Below, piece by piece: positions 1,728 to 32,883 of a DNA stretch of 33,089 bases (its first letter is position 1; each line of letters opens with the position of its first letter). The notes under the pieces were generated by a model, which ran no database searches, was not told the DNA's origin, and was given only the letters and a program-made list of their open reading frames with translations. The stretch spans positions 1-33,089 of the forward strand of contig JAIRVY010000076.1 of assembly GCA_031253655.1 (NCBI GenBank), written 5' to 3'. The DNA is from Bacteroidales bacterium (GTDB taxonomy: Bacteria > Bacteroidota > Bacteroidia > Bacteroidales > WCHB1-69). The translations under genes and the position numbers were made by a program.

Positions 1728-4700
1728 GTGATTTTCGGGAAACAAACAAAATTTTATTTCATTCCTGCTATTATTGTATTCACTTTTTACTCTGTAGTTT
1801 TGGCAATTCCTACTCCGGAAAGTTCCCCCAGACGAGATATTTCAGAAACCCCTTTTTATTCAACTTATAGTGTTGATAAACACGAAGGCGCAGGAGAACT
1901 GTTTGAGTTGCCCGCTTTGCCGCCCGATACCGGTTTAAGAGCCCCTGTTCCAAATCCGGATAACAATCCTCTGCATCAAGAGTTTTACACTCCCTTCCAT
2001 TTGAATACGCCCCCTTCGCTGAAACATGACATAGAATACAATCCCGAAACAAATACCTACACTTTTCAGAATAAAATTGGAAACACCCCTTTCGGACCTT
2101 CTTCTTCTATGGATGTGAAAGAGTATATCAGCTATGATTTGCAACAAGAGATAAAAAACTACTGGCGAGAGCGCGGGGCAGGCTATGTGTCGGGTCCGAA
2201 CCGCAGAGGCGGCGGTGGTATTATCCCCCAACTCCGTGTAGGCGGCGATGTGTTTGAATCTATTTTCGGAAGTAATGTTATTGACATCAAACCCACCGGA
2301 AACGTTGAACTGTTGTTTGGTATAAAACACAGAAGCAATAAAAACCCAAATATTACCGACAGAATGCGCAAACAAACAATGTTGGATTTCAGTTCTAAAA
2401 TTCAACTGAGTTTAACAGCGAGAATCGGAGATAAAATCAATTTCAATTTGAATTATAACACAGAATCAAATTTTGATTTTGATAACAAAATGAAACTTAA
2501 ATATGAAGGAAAAGAGGATGATATTATTCAATTGCTTGAGTTTGGGGATGTTAACTTGCCCCTAAACAGTACACTTATCACGGGAAGCCAAACGCTACTT
2601 GGATTAAAAACAGGACTTAAATTTGGTAAATTACATCTTACCATTGTTGCCTCCGAATCCACTTCCGAAAAAAAAACCATCAATGTTACCGGTGGAGCGC
2701 AAACTCAGGAGTTCTACTTCCGCGCCGATGAATATGAGGATAACAGACACTTTTTTCTTGCACAATATTTCAGAGAGAATTATAACAAAGCGTTAGACAG
2801 TTTGCCGCTGATTATGTCAAATATTGTGATTAATAAAATTGAGGTTTGGCGCACAAATATTGGCGCAGCCGTAACGGATAACAGAAATATTGTGGCTTTC
2901 ACCGATTTGGGCGAAACAAACCCTTCCAACAATAAGTTTACGTCCAATTACGGACGATATCCGAATAACAACAGCAATGATATTTTTTCCGTTGTCGACA
3001 GTTCGAAAATTAGAGATGAAAGCAATGTTACACAATATCTTAAAGGACAAAAAGGATTAATTTCAGGTACAGACTTTGAAAAAGTAGGAAGTGCGCGGTT
3101 ACTACAGCCTAACGAATATACTTTTAACTCTAAATTGGGATTTATCTCATTAAATTCGCCGCTTTATTCCGATCATGTGTTAGCGGTAGCCTTTCAATAT
3201 CAAGTAATTGGAGATCCTACGATATATCAGGTGGGAGAGTTTTCCAACGAAGTATCATCTCCGCTGTGTATTCGTGTGAAATTGTTGAGAAGTACTAACG
3301 TGGATCCGAGAGGACCACTTTGGAAATTGACGATGAGGAATGTGTACAATCTGAATGCCTACCAGATTTCTCCGGAAAAATTTAGATTGAATATACTTTT
3401 TAAAGGCGATGAAGCGGGGATTTCAAACGGATTTTTTACCAATTCTTCTAAAAAAAATATCCCGTTGATTCGTTTGATGAAGTTAGACCGGTTGAATACT
3501 CAATACGACCGTTATCCTGATGGGATTTTCGACTTTATTGACGGTGCTGATGTGAACGGTGGAACTGTGGTTTCGCGTTCGGGAAAAATATTTTTCCCAA
3601 CCATTGAACCTTTTGGTAAAGATTTAAGGGAGGCAATTTTGGAAAACGCCCCCGAAGACGCAGCATGGGCAGAAAAATATGCCTTTGACTCGCTCTATAC
3701 CATGACCAAAACGATGGCACAGCAGTTTACCGACAAAAACAAGTACTATTTAGAAGGACAGTACCGCTCAGCTTATGGTTCTGAGTTTGACCTGAACGCC
3801 TGGAATATTCCCAGAGGATCTGTAGTTGTAAACGCCAGCGGGATGAAATTGACTGAAAATGTGGACTATACCGTTAACTACAGTATGGGAAAAGTAACAA
3901 TAACCAATGAAGGTATTTTAAGGTCGGGTACACCCATTCAAATCTCTGTAGAAAGTAACAGTATGATTGGTTTTAATAAAAAACGTTTTATAGGCACCAA
4001 CGTAGAATACAAATTTAACGATAACTTTGTTGTTGGCGGTACCCTCCTTAATTTGGGCGAACGTCCTCAAACTAAAAAAGTTAACTACGGAAACGAACCC
4101 ATAAATAATACTATTTGGGGAATGAACTTTACCTATAAAACGAAACTCCCGTGGGTTACTAAATTGGTAGACCTCCTGCCTTTTCACAGTACTATCGCAG
4201 AATCCACTTTCCAAATTGAGGGAGAGTTTGCGCATTTTATCCCCGGCCATAACCGACAGATTGGAAAAAAAGGAATTACCTATATTGATGATTTTGAAGG
4301 CGCCCGTTCTACTGTTGATTTACGTCAATTTAGCTACTGGCATTTGGCTTCTACACCGCAGGACCAGCCCGACAAGTTTTCGGAAACTAAGCCGGATACC
4401 ACAGCAAATGAAAGATTTCAACTGGCATACGGATACAATAGAGCCCTCCTCTCCTGGTTTGTAATTCAGTCTCTATTTTACGAAAGGAATGCACCCGGTA
4501 ACATTAATAGAGAAGAACAATCAAGACCCTACTCACGGGCAGTTTTTGAACCTGAAATTTTTCCGAAAAGAGAGTATCAGAGCTCTGCTCAACCTACCTA
4601 TATTCCTGTGTTGAATATGGCCTTCTATCCTGAGGAGAGAGGTCCCTATAATTATGATGTTGACGGAAGTGAAGGTTTTTCAAAAGGATTAAATTCGGAT

Positions 4701-7700
4701 GGAACCCTCAAAGACCCTGCATCTCGGTGGGGGGGAATGATGCGGAAATTTGATAATACCGACTTTGAGGCAAATAACTATGAATATATTGAGTTTTGGT
4801 TAATGGACCCGTTTTTAAACAGTGATTATTCCAAAAACACAAATCACAAAGGTGGAAAACTCTATTTCAATCTGGGAGATATCTCTGAAGACATTCTTAG
4901 AGACGGAAAAAAGTTTTTTGAGGATGGTTTGCCCACAGATGGCACTGATTCTAATTGCGTTTTTACAGTTTGGGGACGTGTACCAACTATACAACAAATA
5001 GTTAACGCATTTGATAACAATGCTAACCGAAGAGAGCAGGATGTTGGATTAGATGGATTGTCCACTGAAAGAGAACGGGAGTACTTTGATAAAAATTATT
5101 TGCAACTCATTCGCGATAATAGCACGCTCGGAACCGGTTCCACAGCCTATCAGATTGCTTATTCCGACCCTTCCGCAGACGATTTTAGATACTCCAGAGG
5201 AGATTACTGGGATAACAAAGGAGCAGGAATTATTGAACGCTACAAATATTATAACAATACCGAAGGAAACTCTACCGATAATTTTAACGGAGATATACCA
5301 AATGCCAATAACACTATTTCAACCTCCACAAGTTACCCCGACAGTGAGGATATCAACAATGACAATACGATGAGCGATGATGAAAAGTATTATCAGTGGA
5401 GTATTGATATCCACCCCGATATGATGAAAGTGGGATATAATTATATCAATGATATTATGGATGCCGTTCCTAGAACATTGCCCGATGGAAGTAGCCCCGT
5501 AACTCGCTGGTATCAATTCCGTATTCCCATTAAAAATCCCGAAGAAAAAATTGGTGCCATCAATGGATTTAACTCAATTAGATTTATGCGCGTTTTTATG
5601 CGTGGTTTTGAAGAACCGATTTACTTGAGATTTGCTACTTTTGAATTGGTGCGCAACACCTGGCGCTCTTGTACCCAAGACCTTCGGGAAGAAGGAGATT
5701 ATTTGCCCGGCCAAAATGTTGAAAATACAGAGTTTTTAGTGGGTACGGTTAGTTTAGAAGAAAATGGAAACAGAATACCTATAAATTATAAAATACCCCC
5801 CGGAATTGAACGTGAACAAATTGTTGGTCAAAATACTGTCCAAAAAATAAACGAGCAATCGTTGAGTATGAAAGTGAAAAACCTAGGTGATGGTGATGCC
5901 CATGCAGTTTACAAAAATACAAACTTCGATATGAGACAGTTCCAGAAATTGGAGATGTTTGTGCACGCCGAAAAAATATTCCAAGAGGATGATGTCAGAG
6001 ATGGTGATGTTACTGTATTTATTAGATTGGGTTCCGACTTTACCCAAAACTACTATGAATATGAAGTACCTGCGAAATTTTCTCCCTGGTTTAACAACGA
6101 TACGGCATCTATTTGGCCTCGCGAAAATAGAATCGATTTCTTCCTAGATTCTTTAGTAAATATTAAACAACGTAGAAATGTAGCAGTTAGAAACGGACAC
6201 CATCTAAATATTTCGCTGCCCTACTCCGAACCTCAGAACCGGAATAGAGATGAACATAGAATCACTGTAGTGGGAATGCCAAATTTGGGAAGTGTTACAA
6301 CCATAATGATAGGAGTTAGAAATCCTAAAAAGCGAAGCATCCGAGATGATGACGATATGCTCCCCAAATCTGTAGAAGTGTGGGTAAACGAACTTCGACT
6401 AACCGGCTTTGACGACCGCTCCGGAGCAGCTGCTTTGGGAAGAATGAGACTTAATTTAGCCGACCTTGGAGATGTTGCCCTCTCAGGAACTATTACTACA
6501 CCCGGATATGGAAACTTGGAACAGTCGGTTACTCAACGACAATTAGCCACCACTTATTCAATAGATTTTGCTACCAATATTGACGGGGGAAAAATCCTAT
6601 TCCCAAAAGACTGGAATATTAAGATTCCTGTTCACTACGATCTCTCTATTCAGGGAGAAATACCTGAGTATAATCCACTTAACCCAGATATTAAACTTAA
6701 AGATGACCTAAAAACATACTACAACCAGGGAGAAAAAGATTCAATCAGAAGAATTACCAATATGCTGGTAAAACGAAACAACCTCAATCTTACCAACGTA
6801 AGAAAAGAGAGAAATTTTAATAAACCATTGAAAATGAGACCTTGGGATATTGAAAATTTAGACTTTACATACGCATATTCGGAGGTGGTGAAAAACGATG
6901 CCGATATGGAGTTTGATAACCAAAGACGCCATGAAGGTGAAATTGGATACACTTTTAACCATAATCCTAAAAATTATAAAGTAGGACAGAAAAAAGGATT
7001 GAAATCCCCGTGGCTGCAAATTATCAGAGACCTGAATATTACCCCAATGCCCAGAAGCTTTACGCTAAGAACATCGATTAAAAGAGATTTCAACGAGTTT
7101 AAGTTTCGCCCAAAAAGTCAGGGAAATATTATAATTGATACCAGTTTTGTAAAATCTTTCGATTGGATAAGAAACTATTCGTTACAATGGGATTTAACCA
7201 ATTCGTTGAAATTTAATTACGGAGCCAACGCCGGGGCGCGTTTAATGGAACCGCAGGGATTGATTGATACTAAAGAAAAGCGCGACACCATTTGGCGCTC
7301 GTTTGGACAAGGAGGTTATATGAACTTCTTTGACCAGCGTTTTGACTTAACTTATCAAATCCCCATCAATAAAATCCCGATGTTTAGTTGGATTACTTCA
7401 AATTTCAGATATGCCGGGCAATATAAATTTATGGGTGCCCCTGTCTCTGTTGCACGATTGGGAAATACCATCGACAATTCAAACCAAATACAACTTAGCG
7501 GACAGATAAATATGCAAACTTTGTATAACTACATTCCCTATTTGAAGAAAGTTAACAATCCGGCTCAGCAACAGGTAAACAAGTCAGCTCCTTCAAAACC
7601 TACAACCGAACCCGCGAAGGGAAAAAAGAACAAGGCAGAAAAAGACAGTTTGAGAACAGGACCCAATTACGGTAGAATTATTGGAGACGGAACGCTGAAA

Positions 7701-9032
7701 TTCCTGATGATGGTGCGTAATCTGAATCTAAGCTGGTCGCAGGGAAAAGGAACTGTGCTGCCGGGTTTTATGCCTATACCAGACCTGTTTGGCATTAACT
7801 TTAGTAAGAATGCCCCCGGTTTTTTGTTTGTTTTCGGCGCACAACCCGATATTGTAACAATGGCAAGTAAAGGAGATTGGGTTACAAAAGACACAATGCT
7901 GAATAATGCTTATCAGAAAAGATATAACCAATCAATCAATTTCAGAGCACAGGTAGAACCGTTTAAAGATTTTAGAATTGATGTGTTGGCTAAACGTGAT
8001 TATACTGATAATGAAACTTCCTTTCTTCGCGCTGATGAAAAGGGAAACTTAAAACCTGTCTCTACTACTTCAAACGGAAATTTCGGCATCTCGTATGTAG
8101 CTTTAGGTACAATGTTCAAAAAAAGTGATAATCTTTTTGATAACTTCAAGGCTATTCGCTTGAATATAGCGAAACGTATTGCAGATGAAAATCCAAACTC
8201 TATCGGCGTTGATTCAACACGTTTTCCAACCGGATATGGTGCACTTTCGCAAGAGGTTTTACTTTACTCATTTATGGCTGCCTATATGGGAAAAAATCTC
8301 GACAAAATGAAAGTAAACAAGCCTTTTATTACCGTACCTCTACCCAATTGGCAACTCCGCTATAACGGACTAACAAAAATTAAAGTTATGGCAAAAGTAT
8401 TCCAAAATTTCGCCATCAACCATAATTATTCCTGCACCTATTCCATCGGAAATTTCAAGGAAAATGTTTTATTTGAGGATAAAATAACAGGATATCCGGA
8501 AGCAATCGACCCATTGGGTAATTTTATCTCTAAAAATGAAATCGCACAAATATCTCTAAAAGAGGATTTTAGCCCTCTTATTGGGTTCGATATGACCTTA
8601 ACCAACAGTTTATTGATCAATGTGCAGTACAAGATGGGTAGAACGGTATCTTTAAGTTTTGTTAACAATCAAATTACCGAAATGATTTCAAACGATCTTA
8701 CCATTAGTGCAGGGTACCGTTTTAAAGATTTAAAATTAGGAATTACCATTGGCGGCTCAAAAAGGCAGATAGTTAGTGATTTGAATATTGCACTTGGCTT
8801 CTCCATGCGCGACAACACAACTACTTTGAGAAAGATTTCCGAAAATGTAACCCAAATTTCCGCAGGTATGCTCAACTTTTCTATCAATGCTACCGCCGAT
8901 TACCAGGTAAGTGCCATGATAGGACTTCAACTCTACTACAGACATCTTCTGAACAAACCCTACATTTCTACGCAATATCAGAATGGAAATATTGAGACAG
9001 GAATAAGCGTACGCGTATCCTTAACTCAATAA
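1728..9032 (+). CDS. sprA: T9SS outer-membrane translocon protein SprA
   Basis: SprA (Sov in Porphyromonas) is the giant beta-barrel through which type IX secretion cargo crosses the outer membrane. At 2434 residues it has the family's usual size. The GTG start at 1728 is chosen because an in-frame TAA at 1698-1700 closes the frame upstream, no ATG lies between, and a signal peptide follows directly (hydrophobic residues about 8-26, ending VVLA). Residues around 850 carry GITYIDDFEGARSTVDL, a diagnostic SprA motif. Much of the rest is alternating, aromatic-rich strand sequence typical of a large barrel. A Lys/Pro/Ala-rich linker lies near residues 1945-1980. The end, VRVSLTQ, resembles a terminal barrel strand. 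No other T9SS component is present in the window. Confidence 0.96.
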   Translation: MIFGKQTKFYFIPAIIVFTFYSVVLAIPTPESSPRRDISETPFYSTYSVDKHEGAGELFELPALPPDTGLRAPVPNPDNNPLHQEFYTPFHLNTPPSLKHDIEYNPETNTYTFQNKIGNTPFGPSSSMDVKEYISYDLQQEIKNYWRERGAGYVSGPNRRGGGGIIPQLRVGGDVFESIFGSNVIDIKPTGNVELLFGIKHRSNKNPNITDRMRKQTMLDFSSKIQLSLTARIGDKINFNLNYNTESNFDFDNKMKLKYEGKEDDIIQLLEFGDVNLPLNSTLITGSQTLLGLKTGLKFGKLHLTIVASESTSEKKTINVTGGAQTQEFYFRADEYEDNRHFFLAQYFRENYNKALDSLPLIMSNIVINKIEVWRTNIGAAVTDNRNIVAFTDLGETNPSNNKFTSNYGRYPNNNSNDIFSVVDSSKIRDESNVTQYLKGQKGLISGTDFEKVGSARLLQPNEYTFNSKLGFISLNSPLYSDHVLAVAFQYQVIGDPTIYQVGEFSNEVSSPLCIRVKLLRSTNVDPRGPLWKLTMRNVYNLNAYQISPEKFRLNILFKGDEAGISNGFFTNSSKKNIPLIRLMKLDRLNTQYDRYPDGIFDFIDGADVNGGTVVSRSGKIFFPTIEPFGKDLREAILENAPEDAAWAEKYAFDSLYTMTKTMAQQFTDKNKYYLEGQYRSAYGSEFDLNAWNIPRGSVVVNASGMKLTENVDYTVNYSMGKVTITNEGILRSGTPIQISVESNSMIGFNKKRFIGTNVEYKFNDNFVVGGTLLNLGERPQTKKVNYGNEPINNTIWGMNFTYKTKLPWVTKLVDLLPFHSTIAESTFQIEGEFAHFIPGHNRQIGKKGITYIDDFEGARSTVDLRQFSYWHLASTPQDQPDKFSETKPDTTANERFQLAYGYNRALLSWFVIQSLFYERNAPGNINREEQSRPYSRAVFEPEIFPKREYQSSAQPTYIPVLNMAFYPEERGPYNYDVDGSEGFSKGLNSDGTLKDPASRWGGMMRKFDNTDFEANNYEYIEFWLMDPFLNSDYSKNTNHKGGKLYFNLGDISEDILRDGKKFFEDGLPTDGTDSNCVFTVWGRVPTIQQIVNAFDNNANRREQDVGLDGLSTEREREYFDKNYLQLIRDNSTLGTGSTAYQIAYSDPSADDFRYSRGDYWDNKGAGIIERYKYYNNTEGNSTDNFNGDIPNANNTISTSTSYPDSEDINNDNTMSDDEKYYQWSIDIHPDMMKVGYNYINDIMDAVPRTLPDGSSPVTRWYQFRIPIKNPEEKIGAINGFNSIRFMRVFMRGFEEPIYLRFATFELVRNTWRSCTQDLREEGDYLPGQNVENTEFLVGTVSLEENGNRIPINYKIPPGIEREQIVGQNTVQKINEQSLSMKVKNLGDGDAHAVYKNTNFDMRQFQKLEMFVHAEKIFQEDDVRDGDVTVFIRLGSDFTQNYYEYEVPAKFSPWFNNDTASIWPRENRIDFFLDSLVNIKQRRNVAVRNGHHLNISLPYSEPQNRNRDEHRITVVGMPNLGSVTTIMIGVRNPKKRSIRDDDDMLPKSVEVWVNELRLTGFDDRSGAAALGRMRLNLADLGDVALSGTITTPGYGNLEQSVTQRQLATTYSIDFATNIDGGKILFPKDWNIKIPVHYDLSIQGEIPEYNPLNPDIKLKDDLKTYYNQGEKDSIRRITNMLVKRNNLNLTNVRKERNFNKPLKMRPWDIENLDFTYAYSEVVKNDADMEFDNQRRHEGEIGYTFNHNPKNYKVGQKKGLKSPWLQIIRDLNITPMPRSFTLRTSIKRDFNEFKFRPKSQGNIIIDTSFVKSFDWIRNYSLQWDLTNSLKFNYGANAGARLMEPQGLIDTKEKRDTIWRSFGQGGYMNFFDQRFDLTYQIPINKIPMFSWITSNFRYAGQYKFMGAPVSVARLGNTIDNSNQIQLSGQINMQTLYNYIPYLKKVNNPAQQQVNKSAPSKPTTEPAKGKKNKAEKDSLRTGPNYGRIIGDGTLKFLMMVRNLNLSWSQGKGTVLPGFMPIPDLFGINFSKNAPGFLFVFGAQPDIVTMASKGDWVTKDTMLNNAYQKRYNQSINFRAQVEPFKDFRIDVLAKRDYTDNETSFLRADEKGNLKPVSTTSNGNFGISYVALGTMFKKSDNLFDNFKAIRLNIAKRIADENPNSIGVDSTRFPTGYGALSQEVLLYSFMAAYMGKNLDKMKVNKPFITVPLPNWQLRYNGLTKIKVMAKVFQNFAINHNYSCTYSIGNFKENVLFEDKITGYPEAIDPLGNFISKNEIAQISLKEDFSPLIGFDMTLTNSLLINVQYKMGRTVSLSFVNNQITEMISNDLTISAGYRFKDLKLGITIGGSKRQIVSDLNIALGFSMRDNTTTLRKISENVTQISAGMLNFSINATADYQVSAMIGLQLYYRHLLNKPYISTQYQNGNIETGISVRVSLTQ

Positions 9033-11312: not shown

Positions 11313-11347
11313 AAACCGTTTGTTATTAATCATTAATCGTTAAAAAA

Positions 11348-20924: not shown

Positions 20925-20960
20925 AATAATTATTAATGTTTAAAGTTTAATAGTTCAAAT

Positions 20961-20978
20961 TTCTTTTAATTATTAATT
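20961..20978. repeat. Copy of an AT-rich intergenic repeat
   Basis: TTCTTTTAATTATTAATT is identical over 18 bases to 24583-24600, and related copies flank the efflux-channel gene. It sits in the gap between the HdrA-like gene and pgk. Confidence 0.55.
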
Positions 20979-20979
20979 T

Positions 20980-21999
20980 TTATTTCTTAATCTTCAGGTA
21001 GTTATCAATTTCTACGGCGGCGGCTCGGGCATCTGCCAATACATCAGGAATACTCATTGGACGTTTGCAGGAACCCGCCACAAAAACGCCTTTCCTGCTT
21101 GTTTTTTGATCCTCCACTATTGGATTTAATGTTTTAAAAAAGCCATATTCTTCTTCACAATTACATTTATTTGCGAGAAGTGTAGTGCCTTCAGAGGGTT
21201 CCATACCCACCATCAATACTAGGATGTCAGGGGTCATTTTCAGAGGTAGTCCCATTAGTGTATCTTCCGATTTTATCTGCACTTTTCCGTCAAAGGTTTC
21301 GGCGGCTTCCGAAATTCTTCCGCGAATGAAATAGACACCATACTTTTCCTGCGCCTCGCGATAGAGCTCTTCATAGCCTTGCCCCCACATTCTTAAATCC
21401 ATATAGAAGATATAAACTTCCGTTTCCGGCGAGAGTTTTTTTAGTTCAATCGCTTGTTTTACAGCGGTAATGCAGCAAATTTTTGAGCAATAATTGTTTC
21501 CCGATTTTTCATCTCGCGAGCCCACGCATTGAAGAAAACAAATTTTTTTGGGATCCTCTCCAAAGGTGTTTTTAATACTGTTTTTCTTAAACATCTCTTC
21601 CAATTCTAACGAGGTAATAACGCCGTTATAAATGCCATAGCCGTATTCTTCTTTTCGGGTAGCATCAAATGCTCTGTAACCGGTAGCAACTAAAACGGCA
21701 TCGGCGGTGTATCTTTTTTGGTTCGAATCTGTGGCTATCAAACAGGGCTCATTGAACTCTAAATGAACGATTTCTGTGTTAAATTGTGGAACAAATCCGT
21801 TGTCTAAAAGTTGAGAATCAATAGCATCAACCAATATTTCTGCTTCCGAGAAATCGGGGAACAGCAGTTTTTTATTGCGTAAATTAGTATTCGTTTCATT
21901 TTCTTTTTCAAGAAGTGTAATATTATAACCTGCTTTTTTTAAAGTAATAGCGGCTTCAATTCCGGCAGGTCCGGCACCAATAATTAAGACTGATTTCAT
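20980..21999 (-). CDS. HdrA-like FAD-dependent oxidoreductase
   Basis: The 339-residue flavoprotein resembles the FAD core of heterodisulfide reductase subunit A. It begins with the dinucleotide-binding motif IIGAGPAGIEAA (6-17). The second half of the FAD site is AVLVATGY (101-108). The HdrA hallmark is the cysteine cluster QCVGSRD with C158, followed by YCSKICC with C171, C175 and C176, which binds a [4Fe-4S] cluster in HdrA. The polyferredoxin domains of full-length methanogen HdrA are absent, and no HdrB or HdrC partner gene is in the window. It probably passes electrons between a ferredoxin or NADH pool and an unknown partner. The role is inferred. Confidence 0.75.
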   Translation of the reverse strand: MKSVLIIGAGPAGIEAAITLKKAGYNITLLEKENETNTNLRNKKLLFPDFSEAEILVDAIDSQLLDNGFVPQFNTEIVHLEFNEPCLIATDSNQKRYTADAVLVATGYRAFDATRKEEYGYGIYNGVITSLELEEMFKKNSIKNTFGEDPKKICFLQCVGSRDEKSGNNYCSKICCITAVKQAIELKKLSPETEVYIFYMDLRMWGQGYEELYREAQEKYGVYFIRGRISEAAETFDGKVQIKSEDTLMGLPLKMTPDILVLMVGMEPSEGTTLLANKCNCEEEYGFFKTLNPIVEDQKTSRKGVFVAGSCKRPMSIPDVLADARAAAVEIDNYLKIKK

Positions 22000-23108: not shown

Positions 23109-23195
23109 GGGATTATGAGTTTATAGGTTTAAAGTTTAATGTTTAGATTCTATAGTTCAATAGTTTAAGAACTCTTACTCTCTTACTCTCTTTTT
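23109..23195. repeat. AT-rich leader of rfbB with short direct repeats
   Basis: The gap between rfbB and thyA contains CTTACTCT twice in tandem (about 23174-23189) and TTTAAAGTTTAAT (23128-23140), which recurs exactly at 20939-20951 in front of pgk. TATAGTTCAA-like words also recur in both leaders. No gene or hairpin terminator is seen. Confidence 0.45.
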
Positions 23196-24587: not shown

Positions 24588-24608
24588 TTAATTATTAATT
24601 CTTAATTT
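24588..24608. repeat. Left arm of a 21-base inverted repeat flanking the efflux channel gene
   Basis: These 21 bases, from TTAATTATTAATTC to the ATG of the channel gene, are the exact reverse complement of 25880-25900 just after that gene. Similarity extends outward with a two-base indel. A 13-base piece of the right arm also occurs near 24485, and an 18-base piece of the left side occurs at 20961. Confidence 0.65.
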
Positions 24609-25886
24609 ATGAGAATCATCAAAATAGCATTGCTATGCATATTGATATTATTATGCAAGCACAAAACATTAGCACAGAGCGCTTTAGAAATTACCGATGA
24701 GCAAGCTGAAAAACAGTTTTTAGAGAAAAATCTGCAAATTCTGGCGGAAAGATGTAATATTTCCATTGCCGATGCCGCTGTTGTTCAGGCAAAAGTATTG
24801 AACAATCCGACCATTAGTGTAGGCGACATAAATTTTTGGAACCCGAACGCCTCTACTGAGGTTGGTGTACCCGCATCCTTTGGTAATAACTTCATATTTA
24901 GTGTAGAACTTGAAAAAATTATTAAAACTGCCGGTAAAAGAAAGAGGCTTGTTAATTTAGAAAAAATGTCGAAAGAGATTGCCTTACAAGAGTTTGAAAC
25001 ATTTCTACTTAATTTGAAAACGGAACTTAGAATCATTCTGCATGAAACTGTTTACCTACAATCCTACTTGAATATTGTTAATAAACAACTTGAAATTATG
25101 GACAATTTGGTGCAGGTTTATAAAAATCAAACTGTTCTTGGCAACGTTGCAAAGCGTGAACTCATTCGGATTCAAGCTTCATTAATTGAATTAGAGTCAG
25201 AAGCAAACGAAATTCGGACAGAGTTAAACAAGCTGTATAAAACGATTAAGATTTTACTGAATTATGCGCCGGAAGAAAAAATATGGATACTGCCGGCTTC
25301 GGTTGTCTTAAAAAATCCGGACGAAATTTCGCTTCCCAATTTGTTAGATATGGCAAAAAATTCCCGTCCGGAGTATTTGTTGTCCGATTTGAATGTGAAA
25401 TATCACGAAAAACTGTTGTTGTATGAAAAAACACTACGCTCTCCTGATATTGCACTCAGCGTAAATTACGACCGGTACGGTGGCGTGTGGAAGAATTTCG
25501 TGGGGCTTGGCATTAGTCTTGATATTCCTGTATTCAACAAAAATCAAGGAAATATTAAGATGGCAAAGCATTTCTTAGAGCAAAGTAACTATTATGCAGA
25601 AGAACAGAAAAACGCAATACAACAGGAAGTCGTTGAAATCTATAATGACTATAAAATGAACTATCTGTTTTACAACAAATTAATGGAAAATGATTTTTCT
25701 GAAGATTTGGATAATATGCTGGACGTGCATTCCAGAAATTTTATGAACAAAAACATCAATATGCTTGAATATATTGATTTTATGTATGCTTATAAAACCA
25801 CAAAACAAGCGATGCTGTTGGCGAAAAAGAATTTAGACATACGTTTTACGGAACTTCAATTTAGTATTAATAATGAAATAAATTAA
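24609..25886 (+). CDS. TolC/CusC-like outer-membrane efflux protein
   Basis: The 425-residue protein begins with a signal peptide (hydrophobic residues about 4-16, cleavage likely after TLAQ). It shows the duplicated coiled-coil and strand pattern of outer-membrane factors. EKNLQILAERCNISIADAAVVQAKVLNNPTI-type text near the N-terminus is the usual first OEP repeat, and RSPDIALSVNYDRYGG followed by GLGISLDIPVFNKNQGNIK marks the second. It would form the outer-membrane duct of the tripartite pump encoded with the next two genes, 29 bases downstream. The substrate is inferred from the pump. It is flanked by a 21-base inverted repeat. Confidence 0.9.
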   Translation: MRIIKIALLCILILLCKHKTLAQSALEITDEQAEKQFLEKNLQILAERCNISIADAAVVQAKVLNNPTISVGDINFWNPNASTEVGVPASFGNNFIFSVELEKIIKTAGKRKRLVNLEKMSKEIALQEFETFLLNLKTELRIILHETVYLQSYLNIVNKQLEIMDNLVQVYKNQTVLGNVAKRELIRIQASLIELESEANEIRTELNKLYKTIKILLNYAPEEKIWILPASVVLKNPDEISLPNLLDMAKNSRPEYLLSDLNVKYHEKLLLYEKTLRSPDIALSVNYDRYGGVWKNFVGLGISLDIPVFNKNQGNIKMAKHFLEQSNYYAEEQKNAIQQEVVEIYNDYKMNYLFYNKLMENDFSEDLDNMLDVHSRNFMNKNINMLEYIDFMYAYKTTKQAMLLAKKNLDIRFTELQFSINNEIN

Positions 25887-25900
25887 GAATTAATAATTAA
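25880..25900. repeat. Right arm of the 21-base inverted repeat
   Basis: Exact reverse complement of 24588-24608. It overlaps the stop codon of the channel gene and fills most of the gap before the adaptor gene. Confidence 0.65.
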
Positions 25901-25915
25901 GAATAAAAAGAAAAA

Positions 25916-26998
25916 ATGAAAAAAACAATAATAATATTAGGAGTTTTAATTCTAATCTCTTGCAATAGCAAGAAATCGGAAAACGTAGATAAGCAGAATC
26001 TTAACAAAATCTTTCTCGAAAATATTGAAACGACGAAGGTTATTTTAACCAATCAAGTGCAGGAACTCATCTTAACCGGAAAAGTGGAGTGCGACCCCGA
26101 TAAACTGATAAGTTATGTACCGTTGATTAGTGGTGTTGTAAACAAAACTTACTTTTCGTTGGGTGATAAAGTGCAGAAAGATCAACCCTTACTTGATGTA
26201 CGGAGTACAGAATTCAGCGTGCTTCAGACGGAAAAAATATCGCTCGAAGCAGAAGAGAAAATTGCCGAAAGGGAGCTAAAAGCTACACAAGCGATGTTTG
26301 ATGCTAATATGCTCACGGAAAAAGAGTTAATGGAGGTGAGAGGAAAACTGACGCAAATACGTGCTGCCATTTCCAGAATAAAAGCGGATATGAGTGTTTA
26401 CGGGGACGATAAAGGAAATGGAATTTTCACGGTGAATGCCCAGATGAGCGGATTTGTTGTGCATAAAAAAGCATCGCAAGGAACAGCAATTTCAACAGAT
26501 TACGATGCTGTTTTTACTATTGCCGACTTAAGTACCGTTTGGATTACTGTAAATGTGTATGCCGGCAATCTGCTTTTTGTGCGAGAAGGGATGGAAGTGG
26601 AAATGACCACCCTTTCGTATCCCGATGAGATTTTTTACGGCAAAATTAACGTCTTGTCACAGGTTTTCGACCCCGAGGAAAAAGTGTTAAAAGCCAGAAT
26701 TATAATGAAAAACAACGAATTAAAGTTAAAACCCGAAATGTCTATGTTAATCAAACTGAAACGTGTAGAGACGGAGCATGCCATGCCTTTACCGGCAATC
26801 CCATCCGATGCGCTTATCTTTGATGCAAATCAATATTTTGTGGTGGTAGAAGAAACACCACAAAAGTTCTTAATTCGGAAAGTTATACTTGCAGGGCAGC
26901 ATAATAAAGTTTCTTACATATCATCGGGATTATGTGATGGGGAAACCATTGTAGTAAAAAATCAGCTATTAATTTACTCAGGATTAAAGGAGGAATAG
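25916..26998 (+). CDS. RND efflux periplasmic adaptor lipoprotein (CusB/CzcB type)
   Basis: This 360-residue membrane-fusion protein has an N-terminal lipoprotein signal with lipobox LISC and acylated C16. It follows the usual order: a first barrel/lipoyl half (ISYVPLISGVVNKTYFSLGDKVQKDQPLLDV-type text about residues 60-93), an alpha-helical hairpin (about 100-150, with REL, KEL and heptad-like spacing), the second lipoyl half (MSGFVVHKKASQG), and beta-barrel segments such as FTIADLSTVWITVNVY. It links the outer channel to the inner pump. A palindrome-like segment at 26765-26792 is read as VETEHAMPLP. The pump gene starts three bases after its stop. Confidence 0.9.
   Translation: MKKTIIILGVLILISCNSKKSENVDKQNLNKIFLENIETTKVILTNQVQELILTGKVECDPDKLISYVPLISGVVNKTYFSLGDKVQKDQPLLDVRSTEFSVLQTEKISLEAEEKIAERELKATQAMFDANMLTEKELMEVRGKLTQIRAAISRIKADMSVYGDDKGNGIFTVNAQMSGFVVHKKASQGTAISTDYDAVFTIADLSTVWITVNVYAGNLLFVREGMEVEMTTLSYPDEIFYGKINVLSQVFDPEEKVLKARIIMKNNELKLKPEMSMLIKLKRVETEHAMPLPAIPSDALIFDANQYFVVVEETPQKFLIRKVILAGQHNKVSYISSGLCDGETIVVKNQLLIYSGLKEE
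26765..26792. repeat. Degenerate palindrome inside the adaptor gene
   Basis: The segment starts GTAGAGACGG, has GCATGCCATGC in its centre (a perfect 5-base-arm palindrome around one C) and ends TTTAC. It resembles a GTAGAGAC...GTCTCTAC palindrome class I recall from Bacteroidota genomes, with about five mismatches. It is read in frame as part of the adaptor, with no obvious extra residues. Confidence 0.3.
26988..26993 (+). promoter_or_regulatory. Shine-Dalgarno site of the pump gene
   Basis: AGGAGG lies eight bases before the pump ATG at 27002, inside the last codons of the adaptor gene. Such a strong site is unusual in this window and fixes the pump start, pointing to efficient coupled translation. 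Confidence 0.55.
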
Positions 26999-27001
26999 GC
27001 T

Positions 27002-30000
27002 ATGTATAAGTTTGTTGAAAACATTATTGGTTTTTCGTTAAAAAACCACGTATTAATCCTTTTTTTTACAGGAATTTTGATTGTGGTGGGGGTCGTTAGT
27101 TACATTCACACGCCAATTGAAGCGTATCCCGATGTTACCAACACAAGAGTGCGTATCATCACACAGTGGCACGGACGCAGTGCCGAAGAAGTGGAAAAGT
27201 TTGTTACACTGCCCATTATGCGAGTAATGAATACCATCCCCAGAAAATCGGATGTGCGTTCTACGTCGCTGTTTGGACTGTCAGTGGTAACAGTGATTTT
27301 TGAAGATGACGTGGACGATTTCTTTGCACAGCAATACGCTTCCAACCGTATGCAGGATTTAGATTTGCCCGAAGGAGCCGATGCTTCCATTGAGCCGCCA
27401 TCGGGGGCTACCGGCGAAATTTATCGTTACGTGTTGCAAAGCGATTTGCCCATCAGAGAACAAGCCGCCATTAACGAATGGGTGGTGGAACGGGAGTTGC
27501 TCTCTGTTCCCGGAGTAGCCAGCATAGCCTCCTTCGGCGGTGAGGAAAAGATTTACGAAATAAAAGTAAATCCAATTGAATTGTATAATTATAATTTGTC
27601 GCCGTTGGAAGTGTTTGAAGCTGTATCGAAAAGCAATATAAATGTGGGAGGTGATATTATTCAGGAAGGAACCCAGGCGTTTGTAGTTCGCGGGCTCGGG
27701 TTGCTGGAAAGTATCTTCGACATAGAAAATATCCTCATTGAAGTGAAGGGCGGTACCCCCATCCGCGTAAAACAAGTGGCGGAAGTGAGCGTTTGTTCAC
27801 GACCCAGATTAGGGCAAGTGGGGCTTGACGACCGAGATGATGTGGTGCAAGGGATTGTGATCATGTTAAGAGGACAGAACCCTGGAGAGGTAATTAAGAA
27901 TATAAAATTAAAAATTGAAGAATTAAATGCACGGATTTTACCCGAAGATGTTAAAATTGAGTCTTTTTTAGATAGAACAACGTTGGTAAACACAACCGTA
28001 AAAACTGTTACAAAAAACTTGTTGGAAGGAATTATCTTAGTTTCCATTGTGGTATTTATTTTTCTGTTCAACTGGCGCACTTCACTCATCGTGGCATCGG
28101 TCATCCCTTTATCATTCTTATTCGCAATAATGATGTTGCGCATTCAAGGTTTGCCGGCGAATCTGATTTCGATGGGTGCGTTGGATTTCGGACTTTTGCT
28201 GGAAGGAACTTTAGTCATAGTGGAGATTATTTATGTTGAGATGGAAAAACGCTCGCGAGAGCTAGGGGCACAGTTTAATAAAATGAGCAAGGGCGGGCTG
28301 ATAAAAAAGAGTGCCGGAAGCGTTGCCTCCCAAATCTTTTTCGCACAGATTATCTTGGTGGTGGCGTTATTTCCCATTTTCTCTTTTCAAAAAGTGGAAG
28401 GAAAGATGTTTTCACCCCTGGCTTTCACATTGGGATATGCCTTGTCGGGTTCGTTAATTTTGGCTTTAACTTACGTCCCTGTAATGTGTAAGTTGATGTT
28501 AAAAAAACAGATAAAAGAAAAAACAAACCATATCAGTGATTTTTTTACAACGAGTTTATATAATTTATTCTTGTTTTGCACAAAATATAAAAAACAGACA
28601 CTGATTGGTTTTTGTATTTTACTGACAATTTGCATTGTACGTTTCAGTTTTTGGGGCACGGAGTTTATACCCAGTATGAATGAGGGAGCCATTTATATCC
28701 GCGCTACATTGCCTAACAGTGTGAATTTGGATGAGTCGGTGCGCATTACCAAAGAGATGAAGCAGAAACTTCTCAATTTTGAGGAAGTGAAATTTATACT
28801 TTCCCAAACCGGCCGCCCCAACGACGGAACCGACCCCACCGGTTTTTTTAATATAGAATTTCATGCTGAACTAAAGCCGGAAACGGAATGGAATCGAAAA
28901 ATAAAAAAAAATGATTTATTAAAACAGATGCAGGATACCTTGGATATTTATCCGGGTATTATTTTTGCCTTTAGTCAACCCATCCAGGATAATGTAGAAG
29001 AGTATGTGGCTGGTGTAAAAAGTTCATTGGTGATTAAGATTTTTGGCGATGATCTGCAGGAATTGGAGGATTTAGCCGACCAAACCGCAAGCATTATTAA
29101 AGAGGTTCGTGGCGTGGAAGATGTGAACGTGTTTCGCAGTATCGGGTTGCCGGAACTGCAAATTCAGTTGGAAGAATCGCGGATGGCACGTTATGCCGTA
29201 TCTATGGCTGATGCACAGACGGTTATTGAAATGGCAATCGGTGGAAAATCTGCCACCAAATTCTATGAAGGGGAGCGCACTTTCGACGTACAAATTCGTT
29301 TTCAAAAAGAGTTTCGCGATACCCCTGACAAAATTGGCAATATCCTGATTCCAACTATGGATGGCAAACAGGTTCCCTTAAAGGAAATTGCTGATATCAA
29401 ACGCATTACCGGTCCAACATTTATTTATCGGGATGGTAGTAGCCGTTATGTAGGAATCGGGTTCAGTATTCGGGGCAGAGATTTGGGTTCCACCATAGCC
29501 GAAGCGCAGGCATTGGTAGAGAGACGTGCCACGTCTCAACAAGAATGCGCCACGGCTCCGCAATCCGCAATAAAAATGGTTTGGGCGGGCGAATTTGAGA
29601 GCCAGCAGCGGGCGACGGCGCGGTTAAAAGTGATTGTTCCGGCGGCACTTTTGCTCATTCTGTTTTTGTTGTATATGAATTTCGGCACGGTAAAAGACAC
29701 ACTCATAGCGGCGAGCGCCATGCCTTACGCCATTATCGGTGGATTTTTATCGCTTTGGATAACAGGTACTTCCTTTGGAATCTCCGCCGGAATTGGGTTT
29801 ATTATTCTGTTTGGAATAGTGTCTATCAATAGCATTCTGTTGGTTACAAAGATGAAAAATGCTTGGCGAAAAACAAAAGAGGTAAAATCCGCAATTAATG
29901 ACTCTGTAAGGCAACTAATCAGGCCTATTTTAATGCTTGCTCTTATGGGTTCTGTGGGTTTATTGCCTGCGGCACTCTCTACCGGTATGGGCTCTGAGAT

Positions 30001-31339: not shown

Positions 31340-31419
31340 TAATAATCTACTGGGGTTAAGTTTTATTAAAAGAGGTTTTAATGTATTAGATATTAATTCT
31401 TAAATCTTTAAATCTTAAA

Positions 31420-32883
31420 TTATCTGTGGTCAAACCAGTCATCTTTAGCATTTCCGCCGAAGTAATTTTCGGGTTCTGTAATCTCAAAATTAAAGTTGGG
31501 AGTTCTTCGCTGGGTAACTTTAATTTTCCAAAACGGGTCTTGAAATTCGCCGCGTTTGTCCGAATGAAGAAGTTCATAATCATTGGAAACTAAGTCCGTA
31601 TTCCAAAAAATAAATTTAACGCTCGATTGATTTTCTAAATAGTAGTAGTGCCAAATTTCGTAAGGATATGAATGTGAATCGTAGGGAGACTCCCAAATAC
31701 TGTTCGGAGGACCATATTGCAAAAAAACCCTGCCTCTGTCGGTGCGGTAGCCTTGTTTGAGTTTGCAACCAAACTCTCTATTCACGTGTTTTACCTGAGC
31801 CAAATAATCTGCCCAGGCTTTTTCCGGATTATTCGCGTCTCTCTTCAACCAAAAGGCGTAGAAAAACCTTCTCAAACTCTCTTCCGAAACACTACTGAGG
31901 TTTGTCAAGTAGAAGTCCTTTTCTATAGGAGAGGATATGGGGTAAAGAAATCTTACGTATTCGAGAAGTTGTACGGTATCTCTAATATTATCTACAAAGG
32001 TATTCTGAATGTTAATCGCGTTATAATCGCTAATATTGAAGGCAATTTTTGGGTTGCTTCTTTGGAAAAAATATGAATTTGTTGCCAACAAAATAGAATC
32101 TTTACTATACACTTCCAGCACTAAATTGTAATTTCCCGATGGCAGTTTATATATTCCGATTTCACCGAAAGTAACTACAACAGGTTTCGCTTTTAAACGG
32201 GTTGTATAAATCGCTTCGGGATAGGGCATTAACTTATTTTCAAAACCTGTAATATAACTTTTTATGATAATCTGTTCATCTCCCACTAATCCATTCGTGT
32301 TATAAATCTCGCAAGAATAAAGAAGGGAATAAATCTCATCGTGCAGATAACCATAAAACAGTGGTTTTAAAGAAAATCCATATTTATCGAAAATTTCTCC
32401 GGTGAGTTCTCTGCTAATTTCTTTATACAGAGAGATATCAGAAATACAAACTTCGTGTTTTGGAAAATCAATAGTTACCACGTCCACATAACTAACAGGT
32501 TTTGAATCAGAAAACATATCCTGTAAAGAAAACTCCAAGATATATTCTCCGTTAGGTAATTGAAAATTTTTGATTTCACCAAAATTGGGTTTTGTGTCTC
32601 TGTCAGGATCTTCAAAAACTTCACTCATCAATATAAAATCCATTACATTAACCACCGAATCTTCTTGAAATGCTTTTACGGTGATACGCACTTCAGCTTG
32701 GTATTTTCCATCTTCAGTAGGTAAATAGGTAATAGTTTTGCCATTAATAAAGGACGAAATTTCTAAATAAGACTCTCCTGATGGTGAATAATAGGACTTA
32801 TAATCAATCAGTGCACTTAGTTTTTGAGCAAAAGTTGAAGTTGTTAAAACCAAAAACAAGGTAAAAAACAATAATTTTTTCAT
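31420..32883 (-). CDS. Secreted GWxTD-domain protein
   Basis: With the ATG at 32883 the product has 487 residues and starts with a clear signal peptide (KKLLFFTLFLVLTTSTFA, cleaved near residue 20). Several beta-rich domains follow. The C-terminal GWxTD module reads QGYRTDRGRVFLQYGPP, with the motif at residues 378-382, where Tyr replaces the signature Trp. SYPYEIWHYYYLE and a conserved FIFWN strand follow. GWxTD proteins are common, mostly uncharacterised envelope proteins of Bacteroidota. The longer reading frame from 32919 is rejected because it would begin right at the predicted transcription start. It shares its strand with the PLP-enzyme gene but is 80 bases upstream of it, separated by an AT-rich gap. 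Confidence 0.85.
   Translation of the reverse strand: MKKLLFFTLFLVLTTSTFAQKLSALIDYKSYYSPSGESYLEISSFINGKTITYLPTEDGKYQAEVRITVKAFQEDSVVNVMDFILMSEVFEDPDRDTKPNFGEIKNFQLPNGEYILEFSLQDMFSDSKPVSYVDVVTIDFPKHEVCISDISLYKEISRELTGEIFDKYGFSLKPLFYGYLHDEIYSLLYSCEIYNTNGLVGDEQIIIKSYITGFENKLMPYPEAIYTTRLKAKPVVVTFGEIGIYKLPSGNYNLVLEVYSKDSILLATNSYFFQRSNPKIAFNISDYNAINIQNTFVDNIRDTVQLLEYVRFLYPISSPIEKDFYLTNLSSVSEESLRRFFYAFWLKRDANNPEKAWADYLAQVKHVNREFGCKLKQGYRTDRGRVFLQYGPPNSIWESPYDSHSYPYEIWHYYYLENQSSVKFIFWNTDLVSNDYELLHSDKRGEFQDPFWKIKVTQRRTPNFNFEITEPENYFGGNAKDDWFDHR

Follow-up and report, generated by a model that had tools for sequence, protein, structure and literature searches.

The window (the whole stretch of DNA considered here, 33,089 nucleotides from a Bacteroidales bacterium) holds two neighbouring genes which code for an RND heavy-metal pump and a membrane-fusion adaptor (Table 1). 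The pump ORF matches the Pfam family ACR_tran with 742.9 bits over residues 8–1029 and profile positions 1–1019 of 1021, i.e. over nearly the full length, as is characteristic of CusA/CzcA-type RND pumps. Its best solved relative is ZneA (E 1.7e-211), and both ZneA and CusA align across it almost end to end. The pump gene contains a perfect 17-base palindrome and a 7-bp tandem duplication. Both had been described in the original prediction, and both are present and read through within the 1035-aa ORF, as was proposed there. When up to three mismatches are allowed, the palindrome remains the sole site of its kind in the window. Elsewhere in the window, positions 1728–9032 form an open reading frame of 2434 codons.

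Table 1. Position of the features discussed in the text, in window coordinates.
Feature	Position	Strand	Basis
Membrane-fusion adaptor gene, CusB/HlyD type, 360 aa, adjoins pump gene	25916–26998	+	ORF, Pfam HlyD_D23 (124.9 bits)
Second palindrome copy, in frame in adaptor gene	26763–26794	+	R1, ungapped profile
RND heavy-metal pump gene, CusA/CzcA type, 1035 aa	27002–30109	+	ORF, Pfam, solved relatives
Loop EAQ..MVW of the pump, residues 834–861, 28 aa	29501–29584	+	Homologue comparison, AlphaFold model
Decayed palindrome copy (3 nt of the left arm missing)	29514–29542	+	Covariance model R1, alignment
Perfect 17-base palindromic core, 8-bp arms and one central base	29521–29537	+	Sequence
Tail: second, diverged right half-arm 21 nt 3' of the first	29543–29563	+	Repeat spacing
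7-bp tandem duplication	29557–29571	+	TRF, period 7, 100% match
Other period-7 tandem repeats	11325–11343, 20933–20991, 23118–23168, 24588–24607, 25881–25904, 27892–27927, 31393–31420		TRF

A dispersed palindromic repeat

The bare symmetry of the 17-base palindrome does not exceed chance: the window has 7 perfect inverted repeats with arms of at least 8 and loops of 0–4 bases, compared with 6.5 on average over 30 dinucleotide shuffles, and for those with a G+C content above 50% the same test gives 1 observed against 0.37 expected. What sets the palindrome apart from chance is that it belongs to a genome-wide repeat family and coincides with an insertion that none of the 83 other sequences compared has. 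The original prediction had called for a search of the genome for other copies. Taken literally, such a search is misleading since the window copy is decayed. The assembly (91% complete) holds no second exact copy of the 17-mer, and four other places match it with 2 mismatches. The near matches have a common right arm, and their flanks extend to a symmetrical palindrome of about 32 bp (canonical form GTAGAGACG...CGTCTCTAC), which starts with TTGTAGAGACG and ends with CGTCTCTACAA. Relative to this longer palindrome the window copy is truncated, so the missing exact copy does not refute a repeat origin; the copies that do exist are those of the dispersed family.

A covariance model (R1) was built from 16 aligned copies, leaving out the window copy, with a structure of 14 pairs given by hand. 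The consensus of the 16 copies starts with TTGTAG and ends with CTACAA, which are mutually complementary. Searched against both strands of the window genome at E ≤ 10, R1 gives at least 117 matches at at least 64 distinct places, a count based on the best 150 of 321 first-look candidates; the weakest of the 64 listed places scores 12.7 bits. The pump copy scores 19.4 bits (E 0.039 genome-wide), and is aligned without three bases of the left arm. A pattern search, in which arms were counted singly, gives 110 matches as opposed to 43 in reversed controls. An ungapped profile was run over the window together with 28 loci, of which one includes a training copy; it finds 31 matches at 8 bits or more, with none in the reversed sequence, and 31 against 3 at 6 bits. 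Five copies of the palindrome follow each other with a 50-bp period at G000:C54:16598-16829 (L149), outside any long reading frame.

The tail is 80% identical to the right half-arm over 15 nt, at a spacing of 21 nt, and two arms with the identical 21-nt spacing are also found in contig C167 of the same genome (G000:C167). The predicted RNA fold also pairs the tail with host codons upstream, and this partial complementarity makes its origin ambiguous.

Loop insertions in the pump and its adaptor

The stretch from EAQ to MVW was compared in 84 sequences, i.e. that of the window, those of 80 loci from genome contigs and those of G002, G011 and G005; G011 and locus L088 are apparently one contig and probably stand for a single comparison. 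The loop is 28 residues long here, while it has 20 residues in 81 of the 83 others, 21 in one and 18 in G005, which belongs to the same genus. The gain of 8 residues is thus private to the window genome within this set, and the alignment around residues 840–856 that the original prediction had suggested bears out its estimate of about eight additional residues. In an AlphaFold model of the pump (mean pLDDT 78.3, pTM 0.65), a helix that ends at residue 848 and a strand that starts at residue 858 flank the added residues, and residues 845–855 are one of six stretches of the pump with a pLDDT below 50. The insertion is predicted to occupy a surface loop of the metal pump. We take the site to be part of the periplasmic porter domain, directly before a membrane helix, by analogy with AcrB and CusA.

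The repeat is carried by both neighbouring genes. R1 scores the adaptor copy with 16.8 bits (E 0.31 genome-wide, and 0.0051 over the window and L148), and this copy is the best ungapped profile match of the window (25.1 bits, compared with at most 7.6 in the reversed window). Over the stretch corresponding to the copy, the adaptor is longer than most of its 85 relatives, by three residues in 44 comparisons, two in 30 and one in 3; it shows no gain relative to 5 relatives and has fewer residues than 3.

Copies in other protein-coding genes

Out of the 64 listed places, 41 lie within stop-free frames of at least 150 codons, and 31 are at least 40 codons away from both frame ends. The proportion in such frames is 26 of 42 for the listed places scoring 25 bits or more, and 7 of 15 for those at 40 bits or more. 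Within the 41 frames, the match starts in phase 1 in 18 cases and in phase 2 in 23; phase 0, in which a canonical copy reads TAG, does not occur. The genes with in-frame copies include alaS, argS, aroC, fumC, uvrA and murC. Thirty element-bearing ORFs were scanned with Pfam (28 of the 39 listed, among which argS occurs twice, and two from the window), and 26 of them have a family assigned at E ≤ 1e-5; the hosts include shikimate dehydrogenase, chorismate synthase, EPSP synthase, fumarase, UvrA, MurC, DnaG, FtsW/RodA, RibD, AlaRS and ArgRS.

A net gain in length is seen at most of the copies tested. The best solved relatives of FumC and UvrA each have a gap of 9 residues opposite the copy (for UvrA, the relative gains one residue nearby), that of MurC a gap of about 5 and that of a phosphosugar mutase a gap of 3, while HemW has no net gain over its best solved relative at this position. 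AlaRS is longer than 26 of 29 relatives from the family or order (by four residues in 15 comparisons, five in 5 and two in 6), and shorter than three genomes of the same genus (by 11, 15 and 20 residues). ArgRS, which carries two copies in tandem, is longer than 28 of 29 relatives (by four residues in 12, five in 9, six in 4, and seven, eight and twelve in one each) and shorter by three than the remaining one. The result for AroC is mixed: a gain of three or four residues over 9 of 29 others, and a loop shorter by 3 to 45 residues than in the other 20. Since most of the net gains fall short of what a full 32-bp copy would add, loop residues must also have been lost or replaced. The tandem palindromes in argS (G000:C166:16975-17048; L025, L167) encode two similar peptides, the starts of which are 14 residues apart. 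As alaS, argS and aroC each have a single match in the window genome and are thus apparently single-copy, the decorated copies are probably the ones at work in the cell.

Genes do not appear to be targets of choice: of random 32-mers drawn from these loci, 85% (2996 of 3540) fall in frames of 150 codons or more, as against 64% of the repeats (41 of the 64 listed). A preference of the repeat for genes is thereby ruled out, and the frame-keeping copies are what survives. Several of the copies near ORF starts may lie upstream of the true start codon, a caution also given in PMC3733652.

Occupancy of the loops in related genomes

Within the family, R1 matches 53 of the 59 genomes searched at E ≤ 0.01, and it matches 31 of 99 genomes drawn from the phylum at E ≤ 1e-4, the window genome being included in both sets. 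For G005, 40 distinct places were listed; loci were available for 17 of these, and 9 of the 17 fall in frames of 150 codons or more. R1 has no match at E ≤ 1 in any of three cusA loci (G002, G011 and G005).

In the other species of the genus, the corresponding loops of the three enzymes AroC, AlaRS and ArgRS mostly contain other fillers. By eye, 7-bp tandem repeats are seen in the AlaRS loop of G001 and G003 and in the ArgRS loop of G001, G003 and G005. The AroC loop of G005 (G005:C75, L213) includes a CGTC-type palindrome and is 45 residues longer than that of the window genome. With up to three mismatches, the pattern of this palindrome has 10 matches in G005 and 5 in G001, and none in the window genome, G002, G003 or G004. 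G001 has the same palindrome as the window genome at the same place of aroC (G001:C233, L200:1947-1978; R1 18.0 bits, E 0.0033 over 60.7 kb), which rules out fillers that always differ between congeners and means that the copy either predates the species or arrived a second time at one site.

Exact repeats with a 7-bp lag number 9 in 176.5 kb of non-overlapping loci of the window genome (180 kb with overlaps) and 5 in 45 kb of G005, compared with none in 849 kb of other genomes, although the rates are biased upward because the loci were chosen around palindromes; at the same threshold the window itself has none. Period 7 is the commonest in the TRF list of the window (9 of 23 entries, the duplication in the pump gene among them). 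The period-7 tandem repeats of the window are mostly A+T-rich and mostly situated between ORFs. In three tRNA synthetase genes, L266 (argS of G015), L231 (alaS of G003) and L246 (alaS of G023), the matched stretch contains one stop codon, which may reflect a sequencing error, a pseudogene or recoding.

From the three enzymes, we tentatively suggest, with rather more doubt than confidence, that permissive surface loops of single-copy housekeeping proteins are shared landing places in this genus, where unrelated repeats (7-bp tandem repeats, CGTC-type palindromes and the symmetrical palindrome with GTAG...CTAC) would be gained and lost in frame between species and be a main source of the variation in loop length of conserved enzymes. 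The aroC copy in G001 indicates that the occupancy is not always different between congeners.

Origin of the insertion

The eight additional residues of the pump are very probably encoded by a decayed repeat copy, its tail and the 7-bp duplication, as part of a process by which proteins are extended in permissive loops. The best reading of the data is that repeat DNA decorates such loops with the frame kept, in a near-neutral manner which resembles that of the Rickettsia palindromic elements. The original prediction had proposed a mobile palindrome extending a protein in frame: the extension is borne out by the indel, by the repeat family and by the in-frame copies elsewhere, while the mobility is suggested by the scatter of the copies and their differing occupancy. 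That the pump is essential, as the original prediction took it to be, is a supposition, although alaS, argS and aroC, apparently single-copy, carry copies too.

In the mechanism we propose, copies of a hairpin-forming repeat would enter the DNA at many sites, both genic and intergenic, and those which fall in frame and in tolerant, loose loops would persist and then decay, so that the proteins would gain a few residues with little effect; the added peptide would be close to neutral. The copies may spread because the hairpin is the substrate of a transposition-like or strand-transfer process. Entry by means of a single-strand transposase is conceivable, as is fold-back copying, given that the region pairs with codons upstream. 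The window genome (assembly 91% complete) has one Y1_Tnp match. R1 gives no match at E ≤ 10 in the 3172 bases around this gene, and no inverted repeats of at least 12 nt at a distance of up to 60 nt are present in the 1173 bases which hold it. We do not claim a RAYT as the driver, as the sole Y1 transposase found has no copy of the repeat in the surrounding 3.2 kb; another RAYT/Y1 gene could be missing, since the assembly is 91% complete.

The pairing with upstream codons could also point to a local origin, in which fold-back template switching, together with replication slippage by 7 bp, would have built the palindrome and the duplication within a permissive loop without the arrival of any repeat copy. 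The region does pair with itself beyond the palindromic core (inverted pair I2, 74% over 19 nt, in addition to the RNA fold), and the genus is rich in exact 7-bp-lag repeats, albeit in the biased set of loci and with none in the window at the threshold used. We nevertheless consider this unlikely, because the palindrome matches a family of at least 64 places in its sequence, beyond mere symmetry, and because the neighbouring adaptor gene has another copy. The same match with R1, together with the position of the palindrome inside the private 8-residue insertion, largely refutes an ordinary G+C-rich palindrome that arose in a fast-evolving loop and is unrelated to the repeats of the genome. Palindromes of this size are expected in 33 kb and the loop of the relatives varies between 18 and 21 residues, yet such a coincidence is hardly credible.

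It is also quite improbable that the insertion is kept for a function, whether as an mRNA hairpin which slows or attenuates translation or as a longer loop which alters the assembly of the pump. Both neighbouring pump genes have copies, and the RNA of positions 29495–29585 is predicted to fold better than all but one of 200 shuffles (z −2.79). A stable predicted fold is however what any strong palindrome would tend to give, the element is present in dozens of unrelated frames, and the loop is poorly ordered in the AlphaFold model. A scan of the window with Rfam at gathering thresholds returned no known structured RNA family. A family in which 53 of 59 genomes match the repeat, together with a genus in which the fillers of the same loops are partly different, constitutes a natural experiment on the entry of repeats into coding sequence, on which loops are tolerant and on short gains in proteins; and an unusual loop insertion in an assembly from this group is not necessarily an error.

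Comparison with known systems

Short palindromes scattered in the genome are known from the REPIN/RAYT systems, and REPs are usually extragenic. The repeat of the window genome shares the scattered short palindromes with REPIN/RAYT systems, but no linkage to a RAYT was found for it. Palindromes in protein-coding genes were reportedly described as Rickettsia palindromic elements (RPEs) by Ogata et al. in 2000 and 2002. RPEs measure about 150 bp and are inserted in frame with a conserved peptide, according to the consulted part of PMC10969869, and Rickettsia is the best-known source of palindromic repeats in frame, while other phyla provide REP examples (PMC3733652). Bacteroidota genomes are among those for which REPs were counted, as far as the accessible text of PMC12306157 goes. 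In titles and openings of abstracts on palindromic or REP elements in Bacteroidetes/Bacteroidales, or on protein-coding palindromes, the element is not reported.

Two types of tagged REPs are relevant for comparison. As described in the consulted sections of Di Nocera et al. 2013 (PMC3733652), GTAG REPs are palindromes of 20–40 bp with an unpaired terminal GTAG and a stem of 5–13 bp, are associated with RAYTs and also occur inside genes, while the CGTC-tagged REPs include RPE-4 and RPE-6 of R. conorii, and Bacteroidetes are named among the phyla with CGTC repeats. The window-genome repeat resembles the former, as there described, in being a short palindrome with a terminal GTAG and intragenic copies. 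Its GTAG is however paired with the CTAC at the other end, the 14 pairs of the structure given by hand to R1 are marginally above the range for the stem, and no copy lies around the sole Y1_Tnp gene. It shares in-frame intragenic copies with the CGTC-tagged REPs, of which a palindrome is present in the aroC loop of the congener G005, but it has a different sequence, and the G005 pattern is absent from the window genome at up to three mismatches.

The closest parallel is with the RPEs, which are likewise dispersed palindromes found in frame in protein genes that are unrelated and probably functional; here, in-frame copies account for 41 of the 64 listed places, and 26 of the 30 ORFs scanned belong to a Pfam family. 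Going by the partial published description of RPEs, the differences lie in the size of the element (about 32 bp instead of about 150 bp), in its being read in two frames instead of as a conserved peptide, and in its hosts, probably Bacteroidales as opposed to Rickettsia. The repeat thus falls outside the definition of GTAG REPs by its pairing, by the missing transposase link and, marginally, by its stem length, and it works like RPEs and intragenic REPs.
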